DNA of 35,933 nucleotides, from positions 1-35,933 of IMG/VR virus record IMGVR_UViG_3300035698_023622; one strand, written 5' to 3'. A program made the position numbers and the translations under genes. Under the pieces are notes generated by a model. That model had not been told where the DNA came from, did no database searches, and was given only the letters and a program-made list of their open reading frames with translations. Positions 8,423-35,894 of the stretch are shown in pieces. Positions within the stretch are counted from its first letter, which is position 1. Each line of letters starts with the position of its first letter. Source of the stretch: a virus.

Positions 8423-8656
8423 ATGTATTATATCAAAAAGAAATATTTGGGCAAAGTGAAATTAGTGAGGGGTGCGGAGCAGCTGTTGCTTAACGACGAA
8501 GCAACTCAGGAGCAGCTCGAAAGCTGGTTTGACGACCCTACTGCCCAAAAGTATATTGATTACAATAAAACGAAAAAAGACGATGCAAAAGCAGGAGAAC
8601 AAACAGACGATTCAGAAAATAAAAGCTCAGGCGGCAAAGGTTCTAAAAAGAAATAA
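8423..8656 (+). CDS. Small charged protein after tail-tube genes
   Basis: 77 residues starting 2 nt after the previous stop. The N-terminal ~45 residues are ordered-looking (YYIKKKYLGKVKLVRGAEQLL, QEQLESWFDDPTAQKYID). The tail is low-complexity Lys/Asp/Ser/Gly. The stop TAA at 8654-8656 directly follows a TCT AAA AAG AAA tract. The +1 (equivalently -2) frame stays open to 8732 and continues the same acidic, Lys-rich composition, so a longer product by frameshift or a 1-nt insertion in the A5 run is possible. Small proteins in this position can be tail-assembly chaperones, but nothing here proves it. Confidence 0.65.
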   Translation: MYYIKKKYLGKVKLVRGAEQLLLNDEATQEQLESWFDDPTAQKYIDYNKTKKDDAKAGEQTDDSENKSSGGKGSKKK

Positions 8657-8750
8657 AGCTTCTAAACAGCCCATAGCCATTTCTGAAGAGGAAACAGAAA
8701 ACGCGGTAACGCCCCAATTGCCGACTAAGTAAGAAGGACACAGATACAAA

Positions 8751-8784
8751 AAAAACGCCGGATGTATAATCCGGCGTTTTTTTT
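8751..8784 (+). terminator. Rho-independent terminator of the head module
   Basis: AAAAACGCCGGAT (8751-8763) pairs with ATCCGGCGTTTTT (8769-8781) and a T8 run follows. The -7 box of the next transcript begins only 2 nt after the T run. Confidence 0.9.
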
Positions 8785-8785
8785 G

Positions 8786-8793
8786 TATCTTTC
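8786..8793 (+). promoter_or_regulatory. -7-like box TATCTTTC
   Basis: TATCTTTC differs from TAnnTTTG at the last base and is placed right behind the terminator. With the usual 3-nt gap, transcription would begin at about 8797, the first base of a 13-bp inverted repeat. Confidence 0.5.
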
Positions 8794-8796
8794 GGG

Positions 8797-8910
8797 TGCG
8801 AAAACAAGTTTAAAAATTGCGGGATACAAGTGCTGATATTGTCGGCGAGAGAGGGGGTGCAAGTCCCCTAAGCTTGTATCTACGTACTTGTTTTCGCAGC
8901 ACTTACCGAC
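8797..8910 (+). ncRNA. Structured leader RNA, unknown family
   Basis: TGCGAAAACAAGT (8797-8809) and ACTTGTTTTCGCA (8886-8898) form a perfect 13-bp closing helix. Inside it, GATACAAG (8823-8830) pairs with CTTGTATC (8873-8880). GGGGG/CCCCT (8853-8869) closes a 7-nt loop TGCAAGT resembling a tRNA T-loop, and GCTG/CGGC (8832-8846) can make a third arm, giving a three-way junction. A competing pairing exists: AAGTGCTG (8828-8835) with CAGCACTT (8897-8904), plus GTCGG (8841-8845) with CCGAC (8906-8910). It overlaps the inner and outer helices, so the RNA could switch. The ATG at 8916 follows. No known riboswitch or ribozyme consensus was recognised. Confidence 0.55.
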
Positions 8911-8915
8911 ATTTT

Positions 8916-9205
8916 ATGAATCCGAGCACAAGTGTCTTGAGTGACTTACTCAAGGAGCATGGTATTGAAGCGAGCAAACTGGTAGCTACCTTTAGGGATT
9001 ACCTTCTTTTGCCCGTCAACGAATACGGCGGGAATTTTTTATTGATGAGGTAGCGAACGACCTGCATGTTTTCTACCGACGAGAAGCAATTGAGCAAGTT
9101 ATCGAACTGATTGAAGATGAGCGTAAACTTAATGAAAGCACGTGCAGCAGTAAGGATGCTGAGCAATCTAGTGCAAGCGAAACGAGCACCGCAGAACAAG
9201 CTTGA
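8916..9205 (+). CDS. Hypothetical protein with -1 frameshift heptamer
   Basis: The zero frame (8916-9053) encodes only 45 residues. At 9035-9041 it contains T TTT TTA in the correct phase (codons AAT TTT TTA), the same heptamer as HIV-1 gag-pol. After a -1 slip the frame runs to a TGA at 9203-9205, giving a 96-residue product whose second part (FIDEVANDLHVFYRREAIEQVIELIEDE) is clearly protein-like. That -1 frame has no ATG, GTG or TTG of its own between its upstream stop and the slip site, so it can be translated only by shifting, unless one T is missing from the run. A weak 5-bp stem (9049-9053 with 9073-9077) begins 7 nt after the heptamer. The family is not recognised. Confidence 0.6.
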
Positions 9206-9737
9206 TAATGCGATAATGCGATTACAGGAGCTAGAAGTCAAAGCCCCTGAGGTGCTTACTCATGAACCAGCACAAGCTTCCCCGATTTCGTCAAGAAGTC
9301 CCCTCTCCCACTCTGATGATATTAAGAAGGCTCAGTCTGACTTGAGCGTTGCGGCTGACGTGCTGTTTCGGGAACAGACGGTAATTTCGCAACAAATAAT
9401 TGATTTTGATCCTGCCGTACCATGCCCGCACCTGACCAGTGAGGCAATTGTGAAGCGGCGGGAGATTGAACGTATCTGGTCTAAGAAGAAGCACATTGAG
9501 CGTAACGGCGTGGTTGATGATACGGAAGATGAACCCGAAGCTCGGACAAAAGACGATATCGAAAGGCTTGACGTAATTGCGGGAAAGTTGCCAAGGCTGC
9601 GGGATCAGCGATATAAGCTCGACAAGAAACTTGAAAAAGAGGGAGCAAAAGAGGCCACAAAGGTAAAATGGGCTATCCAGTTAGCTCAGGTGGTTGCGGA
9701 AATTGAACAACTAGTCAACGAAAGAGATTTATTATGA
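9117..9737 (+). CDS. Hypothetical helical phage protein
   Basis: ATG 9117 was preferred to TTG 9111, giving 206 residues. It overlaps the trans-frame end of the previous gene by 89 nt and the next gene by 4 nt (ATGA). It is predicted to be almost wholly helical, with charged heptad-like stretches in the C-terminal half (IERLDVIAGKLPRLRDQRY, LDKKLEKEGAKEATKVKW) and a linker rich in Ser, Pro and Thr near residues 45-65. There is one Cys and no metal-site or catalytic motif. It may be structural or a partner of the ParB-like protein to which it is translationally coupled. Confidence 0.7.
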   Translation: MSVNLMKARAAVRMLSNLVQAKRAPQNKLDNAIMRLQELEVKAPEVLTHEPAQASPISSRSPLSHSDDIKKAQSDLSVAADVLFREQTVISQQIIDFDPAVPCPHLTSEAIVKRREIERIWSKKKHIERNGVVDDTEDEPEARTKDDIERLDVIAGKLPRLRDQRYKLDKKLEKEGAKEATKVKWAIQLAQVVAEIEQLVNERDLL

Positions 9738-10345
9738 GCTTGATTTGGAAAACCGAACAGCGTAAGGTAAAGAACCTGATACCTTACGAATACAACCCAC
9801 GCAAGATGAGTGCAGAGCAGATGAAACATTTGCGGGAAAGCCTCGAAGAATTTGGTATGGTAGAGATACCTGCCATTAATGAGGATGGAATTTTGATTGC
9901 CGGGCACCAGCGGTGTGCGGCAATGATTGCGTTGGGGCGTGGTGAAGAAATGATTGATGTAAGAGTACCGAACATGCAACTCAGCGAAAAACAGCTAAAA
10001 AAGTATAATTTCAACTCTAATGCTATTAAAGGAGATTGGGTAGATGATATTTTGAGATCTCATTTTGAAGATGTGATTGATTTTGCGGATTATGGAATGG
10101 AGATTGAAGAAATTGGGTCTGCCCACGCCGCTCTTGCCGATGCAACGGAAGAACCCGAAATGCCAATCGTTGGGAAGTTTTCCGAAAAATACACTTCGTT
10201 TGTGGTTGTGTGCGTCAATGAAATTGACGAAAATCATATTGCCGAAAAGCTCGGAATTGAACGTGGCAAGTCTTACAAAGGAGGTACTAATATTGCACCG
10301 ATGCATGTAATTCACGCTGCAAAACTGATTGAGTCATGGAAGTAA
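9734..10345 (+). CDS. ParB/Sulfiredoxin-fold domain protein
   Basis: 203 residues. The N-terminal ~95 residues are a ParB-like nuclease domain: LIPYEYNPRKMSAEQM (15-30), LRESLEEFGMVEIPAIN (33-49), then the signature GILIAGHQRCAAMIALG (52-68) with GHQR at 57-60. No helix-turn-helix partition domain follows, so it is not a chromosome-segregation ParB. The C-terminal half is unassigned. In phages such stand-alone domains often sit with DNA methylases or base-modification enzymes. Here it overlaps a glycosyltransferase-like gene by 10 nt. Nuclease, NTPase or DNA-binding scaffold for a modifying enzyme are all possible. Confidence 0.8.
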   Translation: MSLIWKTEQRKVKNLIPYEYNPRKMSAEQMKHLRESLEEFGMVEIPAINEDGILIAGHQRCAAMIALGRGEEMIDVRVPNMQLSEKQLKKYNFNSNAIKGDWVDDILRSHFEDVIDFADYGMEIEEIGSAHAALADATEEPEMPIVGKFSEKYTSFVVVCVNEIDENHIAEKLGIERGKSYKGGTNIAPMHVIHAAKLIESWK

Positions 10346-11070
10346 AAGTTGTTATACCTTCTCACAAAAGATGGGACCGGGTTAGTACGATCAGTGCCGT
10401 GGACGGTGCTCTTTTGTGTGTGGCGGATTCTCAGGCGAAGTTATACCGAGCTTGCAACAAGGGTATTGAGGTGGTAACGCACCCTGATAACATTATTGGT
10501 TTGGCACGGAAACGGGATTGGATTATTAAGCATTTTGGGGATGTGTTTATGCTCGACGATGATATTGATTCATTGAAGCGGACGTATCAGGAAAAAGGCG
10601 AAAGCTCTGATATCGAAGCTGCGGATGCGTTCGACCTGATTCAGGTAGCGGCGAACGCTTGCCGGGATAGTGGGTTCTTCCTTTTTGGTTTTAGTATGTC
10701 GGCAACTCCAGTTCAATTTGATCCTTTCAGACCTATCAAAATGGGTGGGTATTTTACGGGTGCTGCACACGGAGTTTTGAGCGGCTCAAAGCTGTGGTAT
10801 AATCCAGATATTGTTTGCAACGAAGACTACTGGATCAGTTGTTTGAACGCTTATTATCACCGTGGCGGATGGAAAGATAACCGATTTTGCTTTGTGCAAC
10901 GAGATACTTTTATCAACCGTGGTGGGCTTGCCGAGTTCAGGAATTTGGATTCTGAAGAGAAGGACTTCCAATTGTTGCAACGGACTTTTGGCAGCGATGT
11001 TGTAACTTTGAGAAAGAAGGCAGGCAAAAGTCATGCTTTCCAGAAAACCCTAAAATTCCCTTTTTTATGA
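10336..11070 (+). CDS. Probable DNA-base glycosyltransferase (TAGT-like)
   Basis: 244 residues with a GT-A-like layout: a first strand VKVVIPSHKRWDRVST (3-18), an LARKRDWIIKHFG helix, and an acidic metal/nucleotide-sugar motif FMLDDDID (71-78). FTGAAHGVL and NEDYWISC may be later acceptor-site segments. It resembles the TET/JBP-associated glycosyltransferase family described in phages, which adds sugars to oxidised or modified bases. No hydroxymethylase or TET gene is visible, so the acceptor base is unknown. It is coupled to the upstream ParB-like gene and to the next gene (ATGA). Transfer to a protein or cell-wall acceptor cannot be excluded. Confidence 0.65.
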   Translation: MEVKVVIPSHKRWDRVSTISAVDGALLCVADSQAKLYRACNKGIEVVTHPDNIIGLARKRDWIIKHFGDVFMLDDDIDSLKRTYQEKGESSDIEAADAFDLIQVAANACRDSGFFLFGFSMSATPVQFDPFRPIKMGGYFTGAAHGVLSGSKLWYNPDIVCNEDYWISCLNAYYHRGGWKDNRFCFVQRDTFINRGGLAEFRNLDSEEKDFQLLQRTFGSDVVTLRKKAGKSHAFQKTLKFPFL

Positions 11071-11312
11071 GTGGTAAAGTTGCGACGACTTCGCTTATAG
11101 AAAGAGAATTTTACGATCGACTTGAAGGGGTAAGATCTGGAAATTTGTGTAATAAAGTATTGCAAGCTGGATGGGACTGTGACTGTTTAGAAGAGTGTAA
11201 ATACAGCAAGGATTCTGGTCTTAGTGTTCAGTCGGTAAATTCATTTTTGGTGTTATCACCGCCGACATTGCCAAAAAATGAAACTGGGGAGTTATTACCA
11301 CTTCTCCCGTAA
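11067..11312 (+). CDS. Small Cys-containing hypothetical protein
   Basis: 81 residues, starting inside the previous stop (ATGA). Four Cys are grouped in the middle (LCNKVLQAGWDCDCLEECKY), which could bind a metal or form a small zinc-knuckle-like site. The rest has no recognised motif. It is the last gene of the ParB-glycosyltransferase operon before the terminator at 11359-11387, so its function may belong with DNA modification. Confidence 0.5.
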   Translation: MSGKVATTSLIEREFYDRLEGVRSGNLCNKVLQAGWDCDCLEECKYSKDSGLSVQSVNSFLVLSPPTLPKNETGELLPLLP

Positions 11313-11358
11313 AATATAAAGACAACATCACGCAACTATGATTAGCCCGGATGGGCAG

Positions 11359-11387
11359 AAGCTCCGTAGAAATACGGGGCTTTTTTT
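11359..11387 (+). terminator. Rho-independent terminator
   Basis: AAGCTCCGTA (11359-11368) pairs with TACGGGGCTT (11373-11382; one U:G) around a GAAA loop, followed by T7. It ends the 8797-11312 transcript. Confidence 0.85.
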
Positions 11388-11410
11388 GTGCCAAAAAACT
11401 ATTACAAAAT

Positions 11411-11488
11411 TATACGGATTGCGGTTTCCGTATATCGTTCTGTTGTAAGATATTACAGATGTAGTTAATTAATCATCAATCATTTAAA
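11411..11488 (+). promoter_or_regulatory. Palindrome plus shared leader motif, copy A
   Basis: TATACGGA (11411-11418) and TCCGTATA (11427-11434) form an operator-like palindrome. From 11461 the leader motif GTAGTTAATTAATCATCAAT occurs. Related leaders precede the genes at 13093 and 13380. No standard -7 box is obvious. Confidence 0.45.
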
Positions 11489-11498
11489 CATTACATCG

Positions 11499-12227
11499 AT
11501 GAAAAATCAGAACAATTCTATCCGTACGAAAACCGGAAAATTCGCAAAAAAAACATCTTCATTGTACCGCTTTTGCAAGCGTACTGGACTTGACGAAAAC
11601 GCTTATTATGAATGGGCGAAATTATGCGGTATGCGAGCCTCACTCAGTTATAAAGACCGTCAAATTTGTGAACTAATTGGAATTGAAGCAATTCACGATC
11701 TTCAAAGCTACAAGCCGATTGATTGCGAAGGTTTACAGACTGTTGGAGAGTTGAATCAATTCATTTTAACCGAGTGCCTAAATCCCGCGGATCTTGCAGC
11801 TTCCTACCTTGAAATGCTAACGCTTCAAGATGTTGATACGAGTGCAGACGGCTTAATTGATGCTCACCTTACTACCACCACAAAGGCGAGCTTTGAAAGA
11901 TGGGGCGACGTTAACCGATTATCTGATGTTTCGCCGTCTTGGTTTGAAAAGACGGGTACGCCTTTGGACGTGCAAGCTATGAATATCAGCGAGAGCGTTG
12001 GGCGTGAGATTACTGAAAACGATATGGTTGAGTATTTGACCACCTACCGGAAAAACAAGTATAAATCAACCTCTAAGTTGATTATTGAACAGTACGAAGC
12101 TCGTTTTGAGCAGCTTACCGGATTTCGGCTAACTGAAAAATATGCGGAGCATTTGAGAGCTATTTTGAATGGCGATACTGAGCAGGTTGAAGCAGCTTCG
12201 GAAGAGCTTGAAACAGTTGATTTTTAA
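11499..12227 (+). CDS. Hypothetical protein, methylase partner
   Basis: 242 residues, no recognised catalytic motif. The basic N-terminus (RTKTGKFAKKTSSLYRFCKR) is followed by a region that could be a helix-turn-helix (LDENAYYEWAKLCGM, then SYKDRQICELIG). The C-terminal part is helical (LTTYRKNKYKSTSKLIIEQYEARFEQLTG). It lies 2 nt upstream of the N6-methylase-like gene, so they are very probably co-translated, and it may provide DNA recognition or regulation for that protein. That link is inferred from position only. Confidence 0.65.
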   Translation: MKNQNNSIRTKTGKFAKKTSSLYRFCKRTGLDENAYYEWAKLCGMRASLSYKDRQICELIGIEAIHDLQSYKPIDCEGLQTVGELNQFILTECLNPADLAASYLEMLTLQDVDTSADGLIDAHLTTTTKASFERWGDVNRLSDVSPSWFEKTGTPLDVQAMNISESVGREITENDMVEYLTTYRKNKYKSTSKLIIEQYEARFEQLTGFRLTEKYAEHLRAILNGDTEQVEAASEELETVDF

Positions 12228-12229
12228 GC

Positions 12230-12994
12230 ATGAGTATTGTACAAGATGTGCCGGGCGAACTCAAGGAGTTTGCTCGGCTCTTCGATAAGTTAGCTTATCG
12301 GAACAGCGACTACGGGACTGTATTTAGCGATTGGACTACCTATTTATTTTGGGGAATGCTGCTTGAAGGCGACCCGGAAGCAGCTAAGGATTTGCAACGA
12401 AGGTACGGCGATGACTACCCGATTTTTCAGCAGCTCAATATCGAATATCTGAAAGCCCATGAGAAAGGTCTTGGCTACGCTCAGGGTTGGTACGATGGGC
12501 TTGGGATTTTCTACGAAACAATAGCGAGTAGGTACAAAGCATCTGCATTAGGTCAGTTTTTTACACCGCCTACTTTGGTGGAATTGATGTCAGCAATTGT
12601 GCCCCCGCAGCCGAACGAAAAAACGTGTTTAGATCCTTGCTCTGGATCCGGCAGGTTCCTTTTGGCCGCCCACGTGAAGAACCCGCAAATAAGATGCTAT
12701 GCCAGTGACATTGATCCGGTCTGCGTGCGGATGTCGGCAATCAATATGGCGTTGCACGGTTGCCGTGGTGAGGTTGCACATTCAAATGCACTCAGTTTAG
12801 AATGGTGGGGCGGATGGGAAATAAATCCGATGTTTTCAATACCGGGTTGCCCGCCAGTGCCGCATATTCGTCCACTTAGCAAAGAGCAAAGCAGCTTCTA
12901 TTATTCAGAGATAAATGAGCCTAAAACTGCTATACAAGTTGAGATTTCGGAGAAAATAAAACGAGTCAAAGCAGAGCAATTAACGCTTTTTTGA
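12230..12994 (+). CDS. N6-adenine methylase-like protein lacking motif IV
   Basis: 254 residues. The helical N-terminal ~105 residues are followed by the N6 DNA-methylase start GQFFTPPTLVELM (108-120), SAM-binding motif I DPCSGSGRF (135-143) and the adenine-pocket acid in YASDIDP (157-163). The catalytic motif IV ([DN]PP[YF]) expected ~60 residues later is absent. In its place are an INP (198-200) and CPPVPH. So SAM binding is likely but base methylation is doubtful. The last five residues are QLTLF, matching the QL[SD]LF-type peptide that docks on the bacterial beta sliding clamp. Confidence 0.75.
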   Translation: MSIVQDVPGELKEFARLFDKLAYRNSDYGTVFSDWTTYLFWGMLLEGDPEAAKDLQRRYGDDYPIFQQLNIEYLKAHEKGLGYAQGWYDGLGIFYETIASRYKASALGQFFTPPTLVELMSAIVPPQPNEKTCLDPCSGSGRFLLAAHVKNPQIRCYASDIDPVCVRMSAINMALHGCRGEVAHSNALSLEWWGGWEINPMFSIPGCPPVPHIRPLSKEQSSFYYSEINEPKTAIQVEISEKIKRVKAEQLTLF

Positions 12995-34516: not shown

Positions 34517-35725
34517 TTAGATTGCCGGAAATTTGTTGATTTGTTCGTAATCTATGAATAGCCCCAAGTCACGCAAGTACTTTTGGGTTGTCGAAATATC
34601 GGAATGGCGGCATTGCTGCCGGATTAGTTCGATGTTTTGCGTTGCCTGAAAAAGTGCGATAACTCCTGTATGCTTCCAGCTATACATATCAATCTTTTTG
34701 TTTTCAAACTCGCAGAGCTTCAGTATTCGGCGGTGTTTGTTGTACATCCAGTCGCGACCTAAAGGTTCGGGTCCTGGTTCTCCGTTTTGCCCGAACACGT
34801 AGTGATTTTCGGGGTAGCTTCTAAGTTTGTTTTCTTCGATAAGATCCTGTAGCGATGACGGAATAATGACATGCTCAGTGGCGTTGTCTTTTGCGTTTTC
34901 GCCTCGTATCAAAATTGTTTTTTCTTTAATATCAACTATTTTGAGCAATCTAAGCTCAGAGCGGGGGCGGATGTAACAATAGTGAATCATGTTGAGAAAT
35001 AGCCACAATTGATTTTCCTTAATCGTTAGGCAGATGCGTTTGAACTCAGTGACCTGTTTTGCTGTGAGTGCTGAATGCTTCGTGGCGACGGAGTTAAGCT
35101 TGGAGATATTATCAAAAGGGTTTTCGGTGATAATCTTCCGTTTTTTGAAAAAGTTGAACACGGTTGACATCGTGCCTTTTGCGTTGTTCCTGCTCCTATT
35201 TGTTAGCTTTTTCTTGATGATAAGTTCGTCGAGGAACTGATTGGCGTGGCAATCTGTGATTTGTGAAATGCTGTATTTATCGAGCGAATTACGGGTAATG
35301 AACTCCGTGAAGCGTTTGACGTCGGTTGAGTAAGTTTCGTGCGTTCTCGGCTTCAGTATTGATTCTTGGAATTTGAGGTAGTAGGTGCACGACTTCAAAA
35401 TGTGGGTGCTGGTCTGGACGGAGTTAACGGGAGCCTCGTACTTATTTTGCGGGTTAGTTACTGCCCCTGCTTTCAGGTAGCCGTCAATTTCTTTTGCAAT
35501 CTCTTTCCCGGCACGATACCGAGCGGCGGCGGTTTCTTGAGCGAGAACCACTCTCTTTCGCTTGACGTCTTTTTTGAGGTCGTCGAATGCGTAATATTCA
35601 ACGTACCAGACCTTGCTCATGTCGCCACCCGAATCTGCTATCCGACAAAGTTTGAAGGGGTGCATATCGTTAACGGCTTTGAGGTTGTATTTTTTGAGTT
35701 GGAAGGAAATAAAATCGGTTGTCAT
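34517..35725 (-). CDS. int: Tyrosine integrase
   Basis: 402 residues. An N-terminal arm-binding-type region, a core-binding domain (residues ~105-200, including TYYLKFQESILKPRTHETYS) and a catalytic domain follow. Box I Arg is in IRPRSEL (252-258). Box II reads YSWKHTG (348-354), so the usual HxLRH is replaced by Tyr-x-x-Lys-His, a variant I have seen in Bacteroidota phage integrases. His374 (CRHSD) and nucleophile Tyr383 (TTQKYLRD) are present. It faces away from the tRNA-Leu 3' end 84 nt upstream. A 13-bp inverted repeat overlaps the start codon, suggesting autoregulation or arm-type binding. Confidence 0.92.
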   Translation of the reverse strand: MTTDFISFQLKKYNLKAVNDMHPFKLCRIADSGGDMSKVWYVEYYAFDDLKKDVKRKRVVLAQETAAARYRAGKEIAKEIDGYLKAGAVTNPQNKYEAPVNSVQTSTHILKSCTYYLKFQESILKPRTHETYSTDVKRFTEFITRNSLDKYSISQITDCHANQFLDELIIKKKLTNRSRNNAKGTMSTVFNFFKKRKIITENPFDNISKLNSVATKHSALTAKQVTEFKRICLTIKENQLWLFLNMIHYCYIRPRSELRLLKIVDIKEKTILIRGENAKDNATEHVIIPSSLQDLIEENKLRSYPENHYVFGQNGEPGPEPLGRDWMYNKHRRILKLCEFENKKIDMYSWKHTGVIALFQATQNIELIRQQCRHSDISTTQKYLRDLGLFIDYEQINKFPAI

Positions 35726-35768
35726 GTTTTTGTCATGTTTTTGTCATTTCAAGCCTGACAACCGATTT
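35712..35768. promoter_or_regulatory. Inverted repeat and direct repeats over int start
   Basis: AAATCGGTTGTCA (35712-35724) and TGACAACCGATTT (35756-35768) are perfect 13-bp inverses 31 nt apart. Between them are further copies of TGTCATGTTTT at 11-bp spacing (three TGTCA units starting at 35720, 35731 and 35742). The int start codon lies in the left arm. The geometry fits cooperative binding by integrase or a repressor on one face of the helix. Confidence 0.7.
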
Positions 35769-35778
35769 CTTTAGAGTT

Positions 35779-35801
35779 AACTTACTGATTACTAGTAAGT
35801 T
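35779..35801. repeat. Palindrome next to the tRNA 3' end
   Basis: AACTTACT (35779-35786) is the inverse complement of AGTAAGTT (35794-35801), with a 7-bp loop. It is placed 8 bp from the tRNA 3' end, so it may be part of the phage attachment region or a weak terminator for the tRNA transcript. Confidence 0.5.
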
Positions 35802-35808
35802 AAAAGAG

Positions 35809-35894
35809 TACCGAGGACGGGAATCGAACCCGTACGAGTTTAAAAGCTCACAGGATTTTAAGTCCTGCGTGTCTACCAGTTCCACCACCTCGGC
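35809..35894 (-). tRNA. tRNA-Leu (anticodon UAA)
   Basis: On the - strand the 86-nt gene reads GCCGAGG...CCTCGGT with discriminator A. It has a D-arm segment TGGTAGACACG, an anticodon stem-loop with TAA between GGACT and AATCC, a long variable arm (GAGC...GCTTTT region, class II) and a T-arm CGGGTTCGATTCCCG. The acceptor stem begins with G1:U72. CCA is not encoded. It is intact and very likely serves as the phage attachment site, its 3' part being supplied by the phage. Confidence 0.95.

Follow-up and report, generated by a model that had tools for sequence, protein, structure and literature searches.

A pseudoknotted leader RNA in a Bacteroidota phage operon, probably a translational switch from an RNA class not yet described

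What is the extensively base-paired RNA that separates the capsid-side genes of a phage from a small open reading frame, and how could it act on that reading frame? The locus lies in a viral DNA stretch of 35,933 nucleotides (IMGVR_UViG_3300035698_023622), hereafter the window, to whose positions all coordinates refer; the elements of the RNA are on the plus strand. An earlier note, based on reading the sequence, had described a structured leader with a 13-bp helix, an 8-bp helix within it and a three-way junction carrying a hairpin with a T-loop-like loop. Folding calculations agree with this description, as the leader (8797–8911) has a minimum free energy of -44.8 kcal/mol compared to -27.3 ± 3.5 kcal/mol for shuffled sequences (z -4.99, none of 200 shuffles as low), and compensatory changes in homologues, described below, lend it further support. 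The 13-bp outer helix, P1, pairs 8797–8809 with 8886–8898 and is recovered by the inverted-repeat search, the minimum free energy fold and covariation. The inner helix, P2, noted originally as 8823–8830/8873–8880, is present and extends in the minimum free energy fold to 10 bp (8822–8831 with 8872–8881). The same fold contains a 6-bp hairpin, P3 (8832–8846, with 8832–8837 pairing to 8841–8846), and the hairpin P4 (8853–8869) with the seven-nucleotide loop TGCAAGT at 8858–8864, and both of these are found at the junction in homologues. In addition, covariation and the spacing to the ATG point to a pseudoknot between a strand of the junction (8840–8849, TGTCGG followed by CGAG) and the segment CTTACCGACA (8902–8911), which ends 4 nt upstream of the ATG.

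How widely is this RNA distributed? Phage records contained no DNA with similarity to the window, and the two flanking proteins tried first as queries returned no relatives when the viral collection was searched in this way, and therefore the conserved ParB protein and the TET-associated glycosyltransferase (TAGT) were used instead. A search for the T-loop hairpin with the pattern GGGGGTGCAAGTCCCC returned mostly tRNA T-arms and unrelated RNAs and in addition one distant phage, L011. Its gene order is that of the window, namely capsid, terminator, RNA, small open reading frame, coiled-coil protein, ParB, TAGT glycosyltransferase and methylase, with about 40% identity between the proteins of the best conserved genes. 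Alignments of ParB and TAGT led to more viral contigs and to prophages in Runella, Fibrella, Arundinibacter, Larkinella, Persicitalea and Emticicia. In nearly all loci with sufficient upstream sequence the RNA is located at the same position, directly before a conserved small open reading frame; in two syntenic loci (L053 and L087) it was not found. The homologues of the window type thus belong to related prophages of Cytophagales and occupy the same place. Four GC-rich prophage loci outside Spirosomataceae also carry a window-type RNA in the same gene order, with the pseudoknot strands CCGGGGGA and TCCTCCGG.

Does the predicted fold hold across these homologues? RNAalifold on an alignment made by MAFFT from sequence only recovered P1, P3 and P4, with double changes in 16 of 20 pairs. 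A covariance model built from three Arundinibacter sequences found the window with an E-value of 3.6e-6 and 15 other distinct loci with E < 1e-3. Across 28 distinct homologues, standard pairs fill 94.9% of the pair cells and double changes are seen in 34 of the 36 pairs, a count uncorrected for relatedness; the covariation score is 0.756 compared to 0.192 in shuffled alignments (0 of 500 reach it), and slid structures do not exceed 0.10. Most of the alignments were fitted to the P1–P4 structure, which biases them in its favor, and pair counts generally are uncorrected for phylogeny. The earlier note had named helices that vary without compensation as the observation that would speak against a functional RNA. 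The opposite was found, since all modelled pairs of both helices show double changes (9 of 9 in P1, in which 99.6% of cells are paired, and 9 of 9 in P2). The pseudoknot played no part in building the models: 98.7% of its cells are paired, six of eight pairs show double changes and none of 500 shuffles reaches its score. Apart from the pseudoknot, the T-loop, with the consensus TGNRAG(T/A), and a GACC motif, invariant bases are few.

The note had furthermore proposed that the leader adopts two exclusive folds before the ATG, by virtue of two competing pairings that clash with both main helices. Both pairings are present in the window, and the shorter one (8841–8845/8906–8910, GTCGG/CCGAC, 5 bp) is part of the conserved pseudoknot. 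What it excludes is only the small junction hairpin at 8832–8846 and neither of the main helices. The longer one (8828–8835/8897–8904) was rejected: all eight pairs form in the window only, and across the 28 homologues 44.9% are paired against a shuffled mean of 43.2%, so that it is probably due to chance. The idea of two states nevertheless gains support by comparison in an altered form. The lower part of P3 and the pseudoknot are mutually exclusive pairings, and lower P3 covaries independently (0 of 500 shuffles reach its covariation score); as both use one strand and both covary, the comparison speaks for two states. Lower P3 is missing or altered in some homologues (L079, L054 and L086), and bistability in this branch is therefore less well evidenced than the fold itself.

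Where does transcription start, and where is the RNA located relative to the ribosome binding region? From a -7 box the note had predicted a start at 8797. The Bacteroidota -7 box of the window, TATCTTTC (8786–8793), is one base off the consensus TAnnTTTG, and an exact box is found about 12 nt upstream of P1 in 20 of the 28 homologues compared to a background of 1.2%, which supports the prediction well and indicates that transcription probably starts at P1. Immediately upstream, a 22-bp perfect inverted repeat (8742–8790) forms a bidirectional intrinsic terminator that closes the capsid-side genes, and its 3' T-run, reaching to 8790, merges into the promoter TATCTTTC. A terminator-like hairpin lies just upstream of the RNA in L011 as well, and T-runs precede the promoter in most homologues. 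At the other end, the distance from the pseudoknot to the ATG is 4 to 17 nt among homologues, mostly 6–8 and 4 nt in the window; the pseudoknot therefore sits where the ribosome must bind. The RNA thus has the features of a cis-regulatory leader, being a 5' UTR directly before an open reading frame with a promoter just upstream and a conserved secondary structure with compensatory changes.

Covariance searches of bacterial genomes extended the distribution. The window-type model found the RNA in at least 32 of 222 genomes from the family that contains the Runella genome. A variant, the second branch, was found in Dyadobacter-like chromosomes in no phage context, and a model of it detected the RNA in at least 27 of the 222 genomes, with up to six copies each, and in scattered other Bacteroidia and viral contigs. 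These tallies are lower bounds, as strict filters were used and few candidates were scored per genome. A further search with the pattern CAGTGACCAAYCGGC returned only contigs that were already known. The second branch retains P1, P2, the T-loop hairpin, a GTGAC motif and the pseudoknot, the strands of which co-vary between loci (GGAGAGG/CCTCTCC, GGATAGG/CCTATCC, CCCAGG/CCTGGG, GACCGG/CCGGTC and others). In five Dyadobacter-like genomes the RNA together with a 95-residue open reading frame forms a cassette in one to six dispersed copies, with fragments also present, in unrelated chromosomal neighborhoods. A simple profile of the cassette boundaries detected neither inverted ends nor target duplications, and the cassette is therefore not claimed as a transposable element.

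Within the second branch, the 3' strand of P1 ends in ten bases that are complementary to the start of the open reading frame, over 8–10 of 10 nt in all 25 loci. The complementarity begins at the G of the AUG in 23 of the 25, and the strands represent 22 different sequences. Swapping the reading frame starts between loci lowered the mean complementary run from 9.5 to 4.8. The observed sum was not reached in any of 20,000 permutations; for the Dyadobacter loci P is below 2e-4. Loci of this branch were in part gathered with a pattern in the sequence surrounding the T-loop hairpin; this pattern spares the strands tested here, and the loci in the test also had to show the pseudoknot pairing. Moreover, G·U wobbles are more numerous in P1 than in the pairing with the start codon region at 14 of the 22 loci and less numerous at none, as expected if the start of the reading frame can displace the 5' strand of P1. 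The same test in the window branch gave nothing beyond a weak excess. Mutually exclusive pairings that reach the translation start, as known from riboswitches, are thus found by comparison in both branches, between lower P3 and the pseudoknot in one and between P1 and the reading frame start in the other.

How might such an RNA work? With the fold, the pseudoknot, both alternative pairings, the promoter and the position established by sequence comparison, the leader is probably a cis-acting translational switch, riboswitch-like and of an undescribed RNA class. The stretch in the window would constitute the leader at the 5' end of a phage operon, with transcription beginning where the outer helix begins. 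Its RNA would fold into P1, P2, the three-way junction with P3 and the T-loop hairpin P4, and the pseudoknot that joins the junction to the bases immediately ahead of the start codon. In the window branch the pseudoknot would place a helix 4 nt upstream of the AUG and block initiation, and pairing of the junction strand within P3 instead would free the AUG. The outer helix itself would be the switch in the second branch: with its 3' strand paired to its 5' strand the start codon would be free, and with the 3' strand paired to the first ten bases of the reading frame, counted from the G of the AUG, the start codon would be covered. Since the two platforms differ, which way regulation runs in the window is only what we infer. 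Small molecules, proteins and other RNAs are all conceivable as the signal. A single core with two routes to the start codon and with unrelated genes downstream is a pattern of riboswitch-like classes. We also lean, by a modest degree, towards a broader proposal, that this is a new class of leaders, widespread among Bacteroidota phages and mobile chromosomal cassettes, in which one strand is matched for each gene to the first ten bases of its reading frame, and a common sensor core, which could thereby be fitted to any gene including antirepressors, decides on the opening of the start codon.

Is the RNA related to a known class? The earlier note had recognized no riboswitch or ribozyme core, and the Rfam search it had suggested, run on Rfam 15 with the window and its homologues at gathering and relaxed thresholds, matched no family; as for self-cleavage, no ribozyme model of Rfam matched either. 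The class was found neither in Rfam nor in the literature searched, an absence that does not prove it to be unpublished. Several known systems share some of its features. The autoregulatory mRNA leader of gene 32 in phage T4 has its pseudoknot ahead of the start and is bound by the gene product at a short 5' pseudoknot; the RNA described here is likewise a phage mRNA leader with a pseudoknot before the start but has a larger junction fold and precedes unrelated proteins. Type III toxin-antitoxin RNAs are also pseudoknotted, located upstream of a small gene and present in several copies per genome, but they consist of tandem repeats with a terminator between them and the toxin gene, neither of which is seen here; a repeat search of 8600–9100 found no tandem array of pseudoknotted units. 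The second branch resembles translational riboswitches in which a strand of P1 sequesters the start region, as here too one strand of the closing helix has the translation start as an alternative partner, but differs from them by a complement of about 10 nt that begins at the G of the AUG in nearly all loci and differs in sequence between them. The closest analogue in the literature covered is the Downstream-peptide motif, a 5' UTR RNA of short reading frames without known family (PMC2864571) that was later solved as the glutamine-II riboswitch, which binds glutamine (PMC6698751). Like our RNA, glutamine-II (RF01704), which occurs in bacteria and marine sequences, precedes short reading frames in the 5' UTR and contains a pseudoknot (PMC2864571; PMC6698751). 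Unlike it, RF01704 is cyanobacterial and about 60 nt long with a pseudoknot-helix core, whereas the RNA described here spans about 115–150 nt with a long outer helix, a three-way junction and a T-loop hairpin, and RF01704 is absent from the relaxed Rfam matches of the window and homologues.

What, then, could the switch respond to? That it is a riboswitch for a small molecule or ion, a narrower form of the preferred explanation, is quite possible if short of favored; T-loop, junction and pseudoknot would form a ligand pocket, and the ligand would stabilize the folded state. A single core with two expression platforms and unrelated genes is typical of riboswitch classes, and the association with small reading frames recalls the Downstream-peptide motif with its later-found ligand glutamine (PMC2864571; PMC6698751). 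The scarcity of invariant bases outside pseudoknot, T-loop and GACC argues against a ligand, as do downstream genes that are not metabolic and the occurrence mainly in phages and dispersed islands; gene contexts that would suggest a ligand are few. Alternatively, the leader could be bound by a protein, either the encoded one, in autoregulation comparable to T4 gene 32, or an RNA-binding protein of phage or host. Phage operator RNAs of comparable size exist, and the RNA keeps its adjoining small-protein gene across many dispersed Dyadobacter copies. The downstream proteins are, however, of several unrelated kinds (two main small families without detectable homology, Bro-N and Rha), and autoregulation by each would require separate origins, so that we regard this possibility as rather doubtful.

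A purely kinetic or thermal switch that needs no ligand, in which the weaker outer helix is the first to form and gives way once the start of the reading frame is transcribed or the temperature changes, would fit the systematically wobble-rich P1 and the location of its 5' strand right at the presumed transcript start. It would not account for the conservation of T-loop, GACC and pseudoknot, all distant from the strands in competition, and appears unlikely. Least probable is an independent non-coding RNA, such as a packaging RNA or a retron or transposon RNA, that just happens to precede a gene. Its own promoter immediately after a terminator would suit such an RNA, but a terminator between RNA and ATG is not seen, the spacing between pseudoknot and ATG is short and narrowly distributed, and the strand of the second branch complements the start of the reading frame. 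Furthermore, none of the ten neighboring proteins scanned is a reverse transcriptase, whose gene would adjoin a retron RNA, nor was a transposase found among the neighboring genes scanned, and Rfam gave no match. The switch acting in cis on translation remains the preferred reading.

Which genes would be controlled? In the window the RNA is followed by a small-protein reading frame (8916–9053, plus strand) of a conserved family, which stands directly after the RNA in nearly all syntenic prophages. Its frame breaks at a run of six T (9035–9040), and the shifted continuation FFIDEVANDLHVFYRREAIEQ resembles the homologues. A -1 shift at T_TTT_TTA restores the similarity to the homologues, which are single-frame; the break could stem from an indel, from decay of the gene or from programmed frameshifting. 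The small protein of the syntenic prophages is predicted to be all-helical with modest confidence (model pLDDT 72), and comparison of the model to the PDB gave no meaningful match. Homology between the two main small-protein families, that of the window branch and that of the second branch, was not detectable. Downstream of the second-branch RNA a Bro-N antirepressor is found in four loci (L259, L310, L316 and L332), an antirepressor-like protein in L260 and Rha in a Mu-like prophage (L196/L202); other loci encode a distinct small protein or small proteins without assigned family. If the RNA is linked to the antirepressors Bro-N and Rha, an RNA sensor would be tied to the decision between phage dormancy and lysis. 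Orphan classes of riboswitch-like RNAs of this structural complexity are uncommon. The strand that matches the start codon region offers a simple, testable rule for the gene that a leader controls, and the many homologues provide material for probing, ligand searches and work on the three-dimensional structure.

Several other elements were met in the window and the contigs. Downstream of the small reading frame, a ParB-like protein, the TAGT glycosyltransferase and an N6 methylase are clustered at 9734–12994, probably a DNA-modification cluster of this phage group. At the end of the window (34517–35894) a tyrosine recombinase-like reading frame adjoins a tRNA-Leu gene, and this region is probably the prophage attachment site. 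Seven contigs share a repeated element around AATAGTTCCTCCAGGGGGTGCAAGTCCCCCACCTATTTACATTCCGGGACGCAGATGTTAATGTTCGCACAT. A further compact and conserved element that looks like an RNA is common to ten marine phage contigs; it carries GGTTAAG and the hairpin GGGGGTGCAAGTCCCCC and resembles the D-loop and T-arm parts of tRNA.
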